A stretch of 43,825 nucleotides of DNA from Deltaproteobacteria bacterium. GTDB taxonomy: Bacteria; Desulfobacterota; Desulfomonilia; UBA1062. The DNA lies in assembly GCA_018434685.1 (NCBI GenBank), contig JAHDOV010000026.1, positions 1 to 43,825 of the forward strand, in the 5' to 3' direction. Both the position numbers and the translations under genes were made by a program. Numbering within the stretch: the stretch's first letter is position 1; the number at the start of each line of letters is the position of its first letter. Shown one piece after another: positions 38,378 through 43,174 of the stretch. The notes under the pieces are model-generated. The model had not been told where the DNA came from and ran no database searches. It was given only the letters and a program-made list of their open reading frames with translations.

Positions 38378-38889
38378 AAATTTTGTTGGGATCTAAAAGG
38401 GGAGGGATCTTTCTATTTTAAAGAGTCAACGGCAGGTTTGACCCCTTTTGATTCAAGATCTGAGAACTGTTTTGATTGTCCCTTGACGATTCACCATTCA
38501 CTTTTCACCGTTGCCCCCATGGTTTCTCAAAATCTTTTGACAATCCATGCTGTTGAGCGTAAGATGCTTTTGTTTACATAGATAAATCCAGCTACGAATG
38601 AAATGAATTTGATGACCGGGATGTTTTTTATTATGGGCGGGCGGAAAATCAAACACTGCAAAAGAAGGAATGATGGCTTTTGTCTGTAGGTGCCCTGAAA
38701 GAAGTGCCCTTGGGGTGCATAAAGGAGAGGCAAGCGGTTCAAATCTCAACAATCAACATGATACCTGGTTCATTTTGTCAAATGTTGAGACTCGATGACC
38801 TTACCACATTGTTTGAATTTCAAAATATGGATCTATTCCGTAACATGAGATATATATTACAAAATACGGAATGGTTCAGTATAGTAATT
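38378..38889. other. Gene-poor stretch before the cassette array
   Basis: About 510 nt hold no gene that I can support. A few frames of 70-90 codons are open but lack ribosome sites and family motifs. TTCACCATTCACTTTTCACC near 38491 resembles degenerate repeat remnants common in intergenic DNA. No attC site or attI-like site was seen here. Confidence 0.45.
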
Positions 38890-38918
38890 GTTGAGCCGCA
38901 ATGCAAAAGGAGGTTATT

Positions 38919-39353
38919 ATGAAATTGTCAGCATCTGTATTCATATGGCTATCATGTATTTCAATGACTGCCTTCGCTGGCGAATTAGAAAACTCAAAGA
39001 TTAAATGTGCTGAACTCGGATATAAATTTTCATCTGAATTTAAAAAAGAATATGTGTCAGAAATTTCTGTATGGGGAAATCCCGAGTTTCATTATAACAG
39101 TTCCTTGGGTACATGCTTGGTGTATACGGAAGTCATAGATGGTGCTCTGAATAAGGACATCAATTCCATTTGGTATTACCGCAGGATTACTGACATCTTC
39201 AGTAATAAAGTCCTAGCCTATAGTAGATACTTCATCGAAAAGAAAGATCCATCAAAAAAAATAACTCTAGCTAATCTTGCCAATGTCGGAGATGCGGTGA
39301 ATCTCACTCCTGAAATGTTTGCTATCAAAAAGGCTGAGCTATTTGGTCGGTGA
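38919..39353 (+). CDS. Secreted hypothetical protein, first cassette
   Basis: This 144-aa protein has a clear signal peptide (MKLSASVFIWLSCISMTAFA, cleavage after AFA) and a mature part of about 124 residues with two cysteines (IKCAELGYKF and GTCLVYTE) that could form a disulfide. I do not recognise the family. AAAAGGAGG precedes the ATG. It lies 29 nt after a possible recombination core (GTTGAGC, 38890-38896) and ends 26 nt before attC1, the compact layout of a gene cassette. Confidence 0.75.
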   Translation: MKLSASVFIWLSCISMTAFAGELENSKIKCAELGYKFSSEFKKEYVSEISVWGNPEFHYNSSLGTCLVYTEVIDGALNKDINSIWYYRRITDIFSNKVLAYSRYFIEKKDPSKKITLANLANVGDAVNLTPEMFAIKKAELFGR

Positions 39354-39378
39354 GTTATTATTATACGTTCTGGCTTAG

Positions 39379-39439
39379 GCCCAACCAGGGCATGCAGGCC
39401 GACGCGGCATAGCCGCGCGGCTGATGCCCGGCGTTGGGT
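39379..39439 (+). other. Integron attC site 1
   Basis: A 61-bp site runs from R'' GCCCAAC (39379-39385) to R' GTTGGGT (39433-39439). The inner arms GGGCAT, CAG-CCG and CGCGGC pair with GCCGCG, CGGCTG and ATGCCC around ATA, leaving extrahelical bases on one arm, as integrase needs for bottom-strand recognition. Confidence 0.92.
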
Positions 39440-39505
39440 AGGAATAGTGACATATAGAATAAAAGTAATATTTATCAAGAGAAATTGCTCATATAAGGAG
39501 AGGTT

Positions 39506-40885
39506 ATGCTAGTCAAAGAGATACAAGTAAAAGGACTATTTCATACGTTCGATCATACAATTCCTTTAACTAATCCTGATAATATAACCATAATCCATGG
39601 CCCAAACGGCTTTGGCAAGACAGTTATGCTAAATATGATAGCTTCACTTATAAATAATGATCTCAATATCTTTGTAAGGATCCCATTTTCTGAATTTAAT
39701 ATCCTTCTTGACAGCGGCTCAATTGCATCAATTAAGAAAAAATATTCTGGAAGTGAGCATCCTAAATTCGAAGTCACACTGGTCAACAACAAAGGTGATA
39801 TTATACATGCGCATAGAGATATTGAGTTCCCAGAAATCTCAGACCAACTCCTAGATGAAATAGATAAGATAGTTCCCGCTCCATATAGACGATTTGGAAA
39901 TGGATGGATTTATGATCCTAGTGACCGATTCTTATCCCTTAACGAGATCCTAGCAAAGTTCCCAAATGTCAAAAAAAAGATACCAAAGAAATTTTTACAA
40001 CCTATTCTACCTGAAATTACAGACAAGTTGGATGTCTTTTTTATCGAAACAAAACGGCTTGAAGCTCAGCAAATACTTAGTCCGTTACTGACATCACATT
40101 CTCATTCGAGACAATGGAATATTCATGAATTAGAGCCAACTTCTCATGAACGGTTTTCCTTACGAGTCCATCAGTATTCACAAGATATCGTCCAAAGAAT
40201 TAAATCTGCACTTGCTGATTACGCAAAGCATTCTCAAGAAAATGACCGTACTTTTCCAGAACGTCTAGTACGTTTCATTCGCGAGAATGAATCCATGTTG
40301 CCCGAGAGAGAGATTCTTGATCGTATGGCTGAGCTAGAAAATAAGCGACAGCGCCTGATTAGTCTCGGTTTTCTTGATAGTGAGAGTGGATTGCGTGATC
40401 TCACAGAAGATGACGTACGGAGGGCACAAGAAGCATTGACAATTTATGTCGGAGATGTGCAGGAAAAACTCGCAGTATTTGACGAATTAGTACAGCGCGT
40501 TGGAAAACTGATTGATATCGTTAATGAACGTTTCAAGTACAAAAACTTAACTCTTCATAGGGATTTAGGTTTTCGTGTGCAGACTGATTCTGGTAACTTT
40601 ATTAATCTTGAGAGTCTTTCTTCAGGTGAACAACATGAACTTGTGGTTTTATACGAATTGCTTTTCCGTGCTCCAGAAAATGGATTGGTCTTAGTAGATG
40701 AGCCAGAAATTTCTCTGCATGTTGGATGGCAGTCACGATTCCTGATGGACCTAATGGGCATTCTTAAACTAACCGGTTCCTATGGTATAGTGGCAACTCA
40801 CTCACCTGTTATTATCGGAACAAGATGGGACCTAACACAAGAACTCAAGGGACCTTATGGCCTTCCTGTGGAGGAAGTGAAATGA
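39506..40885 (+). CDS. ABC/RecF-like AAA ATPase, cassette gene
   Basis: This 459-aa ATPase has Walker A GPNGFGKT (32-39), an insertion of about 300 residues with helical, coiled-coil-like segments (LVQRVGKLIDIVNERFKYKN), the ABC signature LSSGE (371-375), Walker B LVLVDEPE with D398/E399, and the H-loop ATHSP (H432). This is the OLD/RecF-type architecture found in anti-phage ATPases such as those of Septu or PARIS, but no TOPRIM domain is present. AAGGAG lies 6 nt before the ATG. It overlaps the GGDEF gene by 4 nt (ATGA), so the pair is coupled. It would bind and hydrolyse ATP as a dimer; whether it senses infection is unknown. Confidence 0.92.
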   Translation: MLVKEIQVKGLFHTFDHTIPLTNPDNITIIHGPNGFGKTVMLNMIASLINNDLNIFVRIPFSEFNILLDSGSIASIKKKYSGSEHPKFEVTLVNNKGDIIHAHRDIEFPEISDQLLDEIDKIVPAPYRRFGNGWIYDPSDRFLSLNEILAKFPNVKKKIPKKFLQPILPEITDKLDVFFIETKRLEAQQILSPLLTSHSHSRQWNIHELEPTSHERFSLRVHQYSQDIVQRIKSALADYAKHSQENDRTFPERLVRFIRENESMLPEREILDRMAELENKRQRLISLGFLDSESGLRDLTEDDVRRAQEALTIYVGDVQEKLAVFDELVQRVGKLIDIVNERFKYKNLTLHRDLGFRVQTDSGNFINLESLSSGEQHELVVLYELLFRAPENGLVLVDEPEISLHVGWQSRFLMDLMGILKLTGSYGIVATHSPVIIGTRWDLTQELKGPYGLPVEEVK

Positions 40886-42228
40886 AATCTCAAATTGATT
40901 TTCCTATGCTCGCAAACTGGGTCTCCATGCTACGCGCAGAGATTGATGGCGCAATTTGGTTATCAGATGATGATAACGATGGTCGTTTCTATGAAAAATG
41001 CGCTCATCCATCATCGAGAGTTGTTCCCAGCCCAGGTGTAGCCTACCAATTACTGAATCATGTTAAGAGAAAGGGAGTTAAGGGCCTAGTTGCTACCATA
41101 AGCACTACAAGTAAAGTGAACGATAATTCTTCAGATGATATTTTTTGGCCTGGTCTTGGGGATGTTGCATCCCTTTTGTTGGCATCGGAATGTTGTGATC
41201 GCATACTTGAAGAAATAACAGGTTCCACATGGTTCAAATGTGCTGAAAAAGAGGTTGGATCATTAAAAGAACAATCAATTTCAGTTTCATGGATATTTGA
41301 GCAAATGCTGCGGCTTACATCTTTACAACCAGGCCTCTTCTCTATAGAGAATTTTATTGACTGGAATAATTTGAAGTTCTCAATTCCAGCAGTTAAAGCC
41401 AATTTCGGTATGGAAGCCGTAGATCATATTAATGTACTACAAGTAACATTGTTAGGTATGACTCTTGAGGAAAAATTGATGGATTGTGATGGTATGAATG
41501 CTGTCCGAGTACTTGCCAGTGCGACGAAGATGTTTCACCCTAGAGGACTGCAGGCATCTCAGGTCGTAAGCGCTGACTATATATTGGGAATGCTTAGAGT
41601 TGCCTATGACTTCAATGAGTTGGAGAGCGATCCTATTTATTGGCGGATGCGCCGATGGGAGCGATATAACCCCAGATTTCCACTTCTTCGCAAGTGGCGG
41701 CTATTAGATCCCCTGCAAGTCGTACAAGATCAGAGGTATTGGGAAAGTGATTTGAAATTTATGATTCAGATGGATCAGAATCGTGAGGGGATGTCTGCCT
41801 TTAAAATGGACCTCGATAACTTTAAGGCAGTCAATGAGCATTTGGGACATACTAATGGAGATGAAGCTATTCGTATATACTGTAAAATTGTGTATGATCT
41901 TTTTAAAGAAATAGGTGAGGTGTACCGTCGAGGTGGGGATGAAATAGTTGCACTTGCTCCTGGACTACGACAACCAGCAGCTTTAGACCTAGCAGAAAAG
42001 ATAAGGTGTACTATAGAAGCTGAATTCTTAAGATGGGGTAATGATCGGGGATTATCTCAATGTCCAACTGCGAGTATAGGGGTTGTCGATATAGAGCCAG
42101 GTTGTGCTTATGAAAATGTAATTCAATTAATGGACCAAGCACAATCTAGCGCAAAAACTGAAGGAAAGAATCGTGTTATACTAATGCTTTGTAAAGTTAA
42201 AGATATACCTCAAACATTGCAAGCATGA
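40882..42228 (+). CDS. GGDEF-domain nucleotide cyclase, cassette gene
   Basis: This 448-aa protein carries an unfamiliar N-terminal region of about 295 residues and a C-terminal GGDEF domain. The domain has the metal ligand run MDLDNFKAVNEHLGH (309-323), NGDEAI and the active loop RRGGDEI at 349-355, with Ile where Phe is usual. The Asn and Asp that select guanine in diguanylate cyclases are kept (VNE, NGD). No RXXD inhibitory site precedes the loop. A basic-aromatic patch YWRMRRWERYN lies before the domain. The start at 40882 has GGAGG 8 nt upstream and overlaps the ATPase stop. It may make c-di-GMP or another cyclic nucleotide as a signal to or from the ATPase. Confidence 0.9.
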   Translation: MKSQIDFPMLANWVSMLRAEIDGAIWLSDDDNDGRFYEKCAHPSSRVVPSPGVAYQLLNHVKRKGVKGLVATISTTSKVNDNSSDDIFWPGLGDVASLLLASECCDRILEEITGSTWFKCAEKEVGSLKEQSISVSWIFEQMLRLTSLQPGLFSIENFIDWNNLKFSIPAVKANFGMEAVDHINVLQVTLLGMTLEEKLMDCDGMNAVRVLASATKMFHPRGLQASQVVSADYILGMLRVAYDFNELESDPIYWRMRRWERYNPRFPLLRKWRLLDPLQVVQDQRYWESDLKFMIQMDQNREGMSAFKMDLDNFKAVNEHLGHTNGDEAIRIYCKIVYDLFKEIGEVYRRGGDEIVALAPGLRQPAALDLAEKIRCTIEAEFLRWGNDRGLSQCPTASIGVVDIEPGCAYENVIQLMDQAQSSAKTEGKNRVILMLCKVKDIPQTLQA

Positions 42229-42239
42229 AAACTTGAACT

Positions 42240-42300
42240 ACCCAACAAGGGCATCCAGGCCGACGCGGCATAGCCGCGCGGCTGATGCCCAGCGTTATAT
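42240..42300 (+). other. Integron attC site 2
   Basis: A 61-bp site runs from ACCCAAC (42240-42246) to GTTATAT (42294-42300). Its central part is nearly identical to attC1, sharing GGCCGACGCGGCATAGCCGC and the flanks. Its R'' exactly complements the TTGGGT that opens the ATPase-GGDEF cassette. Confidence 0.92.
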
Positions 42301-42313
42301 GAGGAGATAGAGA

Positions 42314-43105
42314 ATGGCGGAACTACCTGATATTCGAACGAAGCTCTTAGAGATCATCAGTAAGATGGATGCCTCTATTCGTAGAGATTCATCAAGTGGA
42401 TTACTCCAACAGGGGGCTATCCTTCAAGAACTTAATCAACAATTAGGTTGGTCACAATCGCTTGAGATGCAGCAAGCAATACTTACATGCTGGTATGACC
42501 TTTTTAGAAACGGAACATTGTCTTGGGGAGGCAATCTCTCAAATTCTGACCCGCCCTTTTGTCATATTACAGCTCAAGGTCGAAAAATATTGGAGAACTT
42601 GAGTCGAGACCCAGGTAACCCTGATGGTTACATGGCTTTTCTGTTAAAGAACACAGCCATAAATTCAATTGCTCAGTCCTATATAAAAGAGGCCTTAAAA
42701 ACATACAATACTACTTGTTATAAAGCTTCTGCAGTTATGGTTGGAGCTGCATCTGAAAGCCTTGTTCTGGCAGTTCAGTCATCATTAATCAAGAAAATGG
42801 ATTCATTAGGAATTACCAAGCCAAGAGACTTGGAGGACTGGCGTATTAAGAGGATTCTAACTGGAATTGAAACTGTGATTAAACAAAGGAAACAAGCAGT
42901 ACCCGTCTCGTTGTTTGAGTCATTTGAAGCATACTGGCCAGCATTTACACACCAAATCCGTACCGCAAGGAATGATTCTGGCCACCCCTCAAGTATTAGT
43001 CCTGTAACCAGTGATAATGTACATGCATCTATGTTGATATTCCCTGAACTAGCTAAACTTTCAGATAACTTGATCAAATGGATAGAAAATGACATGTCTT
43101 CTTAG
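42314..43105 (+). CDS. HEPN-like protein, third cassette
   Basis: This 263-aa protein has an N-terminal region of about 110 residues that could be a winged-helix (ILQELNQQLGWSQSLEMQQAILTCWYDLFRNGTLSW split by a turn; ITAQGRKILENL) and a helical C-terminal part from about 115. There the motif R219-NDSG-H224 followed by PSS matches RX4H of HEPN nucleases and DUF4145-like proteins, preceded by the helix YKASAVMVGAASESLVLAV. HEPN proteins are often toxins or RNases in defence systems; this one could instead be a non-catalytic relative. The ATG has GAGGAGA upstream, 13 nt after the attC2 core. The family assignment is by motif only. Confidence 0.8.
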   Translation: MAELPDIRTKLLEIISKMDASIRRDSSSGLLQQGAILQELNQQLGWSQSLEMQQAILTCWYDLFRNGTLSWGGNLSNSDPPFCHITAQGRKILENLSRDPGNPDGYMAFLLKNTAINSIAQSYIKEALKTYNTTCYKASAVMVGAASESLVLAVQSSLIKKMDSLGITKPRDLEDWRIKRILTGIETVIKQRKQAVPVSLFESFEAYWPAFTHQIRTARNDSGHPSSISPVTSDNVHASMLIFPELAKLSDNLIKWIENDMSS

Positions 43106-43117
43106 TGCCTTGGAATC

Positions 43118-43174
43118 ATATAACCCGCCACTCCAGCGGACGGCTTTCAGCCGCCGCTGACCGGCACGTTAGGC
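43118..43174 (+). other. Integron attC site 3
   Basis: A 57-bp site runs from ATATAAC (43118-43124) to GTTAGGC (43168-43174). Inner arms CAGCGG and CGGC pair with GCCG and CCGCTG around TTTCA, with an extrahelical A. It differs in sequence from sites 1 and 2 but folds alike, and its R'' complements the TTATAT opening the third cassette. Confidence 0.9.

Follow-up and report, generated by a model that had tools for sequence, protein, structure and literature searches.

The two-gene cassette

The pair of genes considered here lies towards the end of a 43,825-nucleotide stretch of DNA (the window) from a Deltaproteobacteria bacterium (contig JAHDOV010000026.1, positions 1 to 43,825). Both genes are on the forward strand. 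The first (39506..40885) encodes an ABC ATPase of 459 residues that resembles AriA of the PARIS anti-phage system. The second (open reading frame 40882-42228) encodes a partner of 448 residues in which an AriB-like part is followed by a GGDEF domain. The two frames overlap by 4 nucleotides (ATGA), a GGAGG ribosome site stands just upstream of the second, and the partner is translationally coupled to the AriA-type ATPase. An earlier note, made from the letters alone, had described this overlap, an ATPase with all ABC motifs, an intact RRGGDEI loop without the RxxD inhibitory site, and a single integron cassette with matching half-sites that would move both genes together. Each of these observations has held up.

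The cassette covers about 2861 bp (39433..42293, forward strand). Its upstream boundary is attC site 1 (39379..39439, R'' GCCCAAC and R' GTTGGGT) and its downstream boundary is attC site 2 (42240..42300, R'' ACCCAAC and R' GTTATAT), both on the forward strand. The two sites share repeat D1, a near-identical 56-nucleotide repeat (95% identity) found at 39380 and 42241. The bottom strand of each folds into a hairpin, at -25.6 kcal/mol for site 1 (z -5.1 against shuffles) and with z -4.6 against shuffles for site 2. The core sites fit as well: GTTGGGT (R', 39433) is the exact complement of ACCCAAC (R'', 42240). The genome has integron integrases on contigs C33 and C22, and the one on C33 is adjoined by an attC of the window's type. 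The guanine-cytosine content of the cassette is about 39-41%, compared with 53% for the window, which marks it as foreign DNA with a uniform composition. A promoter search within the two-gene cassette gave no signal above chance.

An AriA-like ATPase and an AriB-like partner

The ATPase has a Walker A motif (GPNGFGKT, residue 32), a signature (LSSGEQ, 371), a Walker B motif (LVLVDEPE, 394) and an H-loop (ATHSP, 430). Among PADLOC models AriA scores best (E 4.7e-24), with PtuA models close behind, and the closest solved relative is AriA of PARIS (Protein Data Bank, E 2.8e-17). It shares 30-36% identity with AriA proteins that adjoin AriB genes on plasmids, in a phage and in genomes of the same phylum. 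Family models and intact motifs agree in marking it as an AriA-type ABC ATPase.

The partner is less easily placed. The earlier note had left about 295 N-terminal residues as an unknown part and had proposed profile searches of both proteins against defence-system models. The ATPase matches PADLOC AriA, but the first 270 residues of the partner match neither PADLOC AriB nor Pfam DUF4435 at E values up to 1. The N-terminal part is in fact about 268 residues long (40882..41685, forward strand) and is recognisable as AriB/DUF4435, a Toprim domain, by profile comparison, phmmer and fold. In hhalign it aligns end to end with ten AriBs (probability 75%, E 2.5e-5). In phmmer, residues 1-268 matched other AriBs among the open reading frames of relatives' loci (best E 6e-11). 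A profile of 85 AriBs built without the window protein found it in hmmsearch with E 1.8e-6 and 25 bits over profile positions 23-301, whereas 1000 shuffled copies scored at most 6.7 bits.

The predicted structure points the same way. An AlphaFold model of residues 1-268, folded with AriB relatives in the alignment, has a predicted local distance difference test score (pLDDT) of 91. Its top match by Foldseek and VIA-align is the cryo-electron microscopy structure of E. coli AriB (8ux9/8v46; Z 15.8 over 248 residues at 8% identity), and the next fold is that of OLD Toprim domains (Z 7.5). E. coli AriB was left out of the folding alignment. Since that alignment consisted of AriBs, the model does not count as fully independent evidence; the sequence results do. 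By homology and predicted fold, residues 1-268 make up a divergent AriB (DUF4435/Toprim) of full length. AriB is the effector of PARIS, and here it is encoded next to an AriA-type ATPase.

One feature sets it apart from its relatives. When the protein is aligned with 86 other AriB partners, 85 of the 86 have the Toprim glutamate at the position where the window protein has D29. The two aspartates of the DxD motif are kept in 85 and 83 of them, and here they are replaced by S74 and T76. A later glutamate, present in 70 of the 86, is A96. In other words, the intact catalytic acids (E, DxD) expected of a PARIS effector are not there. The position of D29 matches that of the E26A mutation, which abolishes the tRNase (transfer RNA-cleaving) activity of AriB (PMC12409363). 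By alignment and model, the window protein keeps the AriB fold and has lost the Toprim metal-binding acids.

The GGDEF domain and its likely product

The remainder of the partner (residues 269-448; 41686..42228, forward strand) is a diguanylate-cyclase domain in the same open reading frame as the AriB part and with a similar base composition. It scores above the curated cut-offs of Pfam GGDEF (E 2.5e-19, 70.1 bits against 23.8) and TIGR00254 (80.8 bits against 37.4). The loop RRGGDEI occupies residues 349-355, with GGDEI at 351-355. Alignment to DosC and PA0861 shows that the metal- and guanine-binding residues D310, N318, D327 and GGDEI are all present. The RxxD site is absent, and residues 342-345 read KEIG. 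PleD, WspR and DosC are the nearest folds, judged from a full-length AlphaFold model (pLDDT 73.8) that was used only for the GGDEF fold. It was built from a thin alignment with both sets of relatives because a deeper one misplaced AriB onto GGDEF. With a domain above the cut-off and a full set of active-site residues, the protein has the sequence features expected of a diguanylate cyclase.

What would such an enzyme make? Promiscuous Hypr enzymes have a serine at the position corresponding to D327, as placed by motif (PMC9302825). Since D327 is the standard GGDEF aspartate and not the Hypr serine, guanosine triphosphate (GTP) is the most likely substrate and cyclic di-GMP (c-di-GMP) the most likely product. 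The domain shares with PleD, WspR and DosC its completeness and its metal-binding and guanine-recognition residues. It differs in ending the signature as GGDEI for GGDEF, in the missing product-inhibition site and in its input module, which is an AriB scaffold with an ABC ATPase and not a receiver, PAS or GAF domain.

Perhaps the domain is not an output at all. Many GGDEF domains serve as receptors, and this one could be a GTP- or c-di-GMP-sensing module that tunes AriB release, the effector being a residual or changed Toprim activity. The AriB scaffold is complete and D29 could still hold one metal. However, sensory GGDEFs usually lose the catalytic and guanine-binding residues of diguanylate cyclases, every one of which, among those tested, is present here, and the DxD pair for two-metal cleavage is gone. 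We regard this explanation as unlikely.

Relation to PARIS and a proposed exchange of effector

The earlier note had likened the pair to Septu- and PARIS-type layouts. The likeness to PARIS goes beyond layout, with an AriA relative and AriB itself involved: gene order, translational coupling, an ATPase with all motifs, an AriB fold across the whole domain and residence on mobile DNA are shared. The differences are the lost Toprim acids and the GGDEF domain fused at the C-terminus. The standard PARIS rule is an ATPase plus DUF4435 (PMC9122126), and it would miss the window pair because the partner escapes the PADLOC AriB and Pfam DUF4435 models. The pair is a PARIS variant missed by the detection models tested. 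Homology of both proteins indicates that it is PARIS-derived. Nevertheless, we do not count it as a member of PARIS, because the Toprim tRNase site, a defining feature of PARIS, is lost.

Other systems are excluded by their defining parts. Septu (PtuA and PtuB) has a related ABC ATPase, and PtuA models score near AriA models. However, PtuB is an HNH nuclease and the window partner is AriB-GGDEF, so the Septu half of the comparison is not supported. The earlier suggestion of a CBASS-like signal arm stands as an analogy only, because no model of a CD-NTase (cGAS/DncV-like) matched either protein. In Panoptes (OptS mCpol and OptE) a palm-domain cyclic-dinucleotide synthase also belongs to a two-gene anti-phage operon (PMC12657218). 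There the synthase is an mCpol paired with a membrane effector. The window enzyme is of the canonical GGDEF type, scoring as a diguanylate cyclase far above Cas10 models, and is fused to AriB and paired with an AriA-type ATPase. The literature searched contains no named system that pairs these two genes, as the earlier note had supposed, and no paper with both GGDEF and DUF4435.

The relatives of the ATPase reinforce the link with AriB. The sample comprised plasmid, phage and same-phylum relatives and 104 further loci from genome and viral collections. The plasmid, phage and same-phylum ATPase genes directly precede genes for AriBs of 280-300 residues, most of which, when tested, match PADLOC AriB and Pfam DUF4435. 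The co-occurrence envisaged in the earlier note is found for AriB, with a profile match at 109 of the 113 other loci with recognisable ATPase relatives (the remaining 4 are cut or broken), but not for GGDEF, which is in none of the partners at those 113 loci. AriB was found in 6 of 395 same-phylum genomes by profile search, and only the window's exceeds about 340 codons. A search with the N-terminal domain, of limited sensitivity, found no second AriB-GGDEF fusion in those 395 genomes, plasmids, phages, and viral and genome contigs. Two weak same-phylum matches (E 0.005-0.007) are not AriB, and the one locus inspected (L013) holds unrelated genes. GGDEF genes close to PARIS in three genomes (G046, G082 and G117) are convergent, encode unrelated proteins of 560 residues and are not partners.

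A separate observation concerns Heliophilum fasciatum (NZ_SLXT01000026.1; L127:2551-6299), in which a class III nucleotide cyclase with a fused TPR-S domain comes within about 12 nucleotides after AriB and AriA and is itself followed by CRISPR-like repeats. This is a second nucleotide cyclase adjoining PARIS genes, and AriB is intact there. The cyclase is a separate class III protein and was rejected as a second fusion.

In known PARIS, an AriA hexamer sequesters three AriB copies until a trigger such as Ocr brings about their release, dimerisation and cleavage of tRNA-Lys (PMC12409363; PMC11455837). What if this switch was kept and only the effector was exchanged? In this hypothetical scenario the ATPase, as proposed sensor and holder, would form a ring that keeps the AriB-GGDEF copies apart and inactive. 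A trigger produced by the phage (one like Ocr, in known PARIS) would alter AriA and free them. The freed AriB parts would then dimerise and bring two GGDEF domains together, with the dead Toprim acting as a docking and dimerising scaffold only. Diguanylate cyclases work as GGDEF-domain dimers. Therefore, a release-and-dimerise switch would run the fused domain without any new regulatory part. In the absence of an RxxD site, c-di-GMP synthesis would be unchecked, and the burst would halt growth or alter the state of the cell via host receptors, or GTP would be drained. With 12 matches to the GGDEF protein and 15 PilZ matches, the genome of the host has a c-di-GMP network, so the burst could use existing receptors.

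As far as the effector step, the pair may operate in the same way as PARIS. We put the chance that the cassette is PARIS-derived with its effector exchanged from tRNase to cyclase at about even. The fuller proposal, in which PARIS-type sensing is wired to a second messenger through an AriA-caged AriB-cyclase fusion that makes c-di-GMP as an immune signal upon triggered release and dimerisation, is more tentative and falls somewhat short of even. The defence role is putative, as are the phage trigger, the product and its target.

The same c-di-GMP network, to which 1 EAL match belongs as well, is also what might be expected if the pair were a co-opted regulator and not a defence system. The AriA-like ATPase would then control an ordinary diguanylate cyclase and adjust motility or attachment under DNA damage or other stress. 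Some OLD-family ATPases work outside defence (PMC12796447). Set against this, the AriA and AriB relatives make up the PARIS family, a known phage defence, and several of them sit on prophages and plasmids. Integron cassettes, too, often bear defence genes. This alternative is rather unlikely.

Finally, the pair might be a decaying, non-functional relic, with the AriB site lost and an accidental GGDEF fusion persisting in one genome. The fusion is a singleton, the ATPase branch is long and the AriB part is divergent. However, neither open reading frame is damaged, every ATPase and GGDEF motif is in place, and the pair has a ribosome site and the start-stop overlap. The loss affects only the old active site, and the protein has a complete new one. 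Decay is highly improbable.

Several points weigh against the exchange of effector. Family models separate AriA-type from PtuA-type only narrowly for this ATPase, its position in the AriA tree has no support, and the GGDEF signature terminates in I and not F. The fusion is a single instance in the collections searched, and its maintenance is therefore without evolutionary support. Phage sensing, complex formation and c-di-GMP synthesis by the pair are predicted. If the reading is true, PARIS is modular: one sensor and one release-and-dimerise switch can drive another effector, with the old nuclease retained as a scaffold. It would also tie c-di-GMP, the most common bacterial second messenger, to an anti-phage trigger. 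The tested PARIS models miss variants with a diverged AriB, so effector swaps may be under-counted.

Some features lie outside the two-gene cassette. The integrase on contig C33 (G000:C33:1-6411, L168) is full length, and its cassette array, which has the attC type of the window, lies on the other strand; that on C22 is a second full integrase. A small cassette preceding the pair (38888-39378) codes for a 150-residue protein with no family match, and GTTGAGC at 38890 may be its start core site. The cassette that follows (42294-43174) ends in a third attC (43118-43174), its core sites matching as GTTATAT (42294) and ATATAAC (43118), and codes for a 263-residue protein with a weak C-terminal match to DUF4145.
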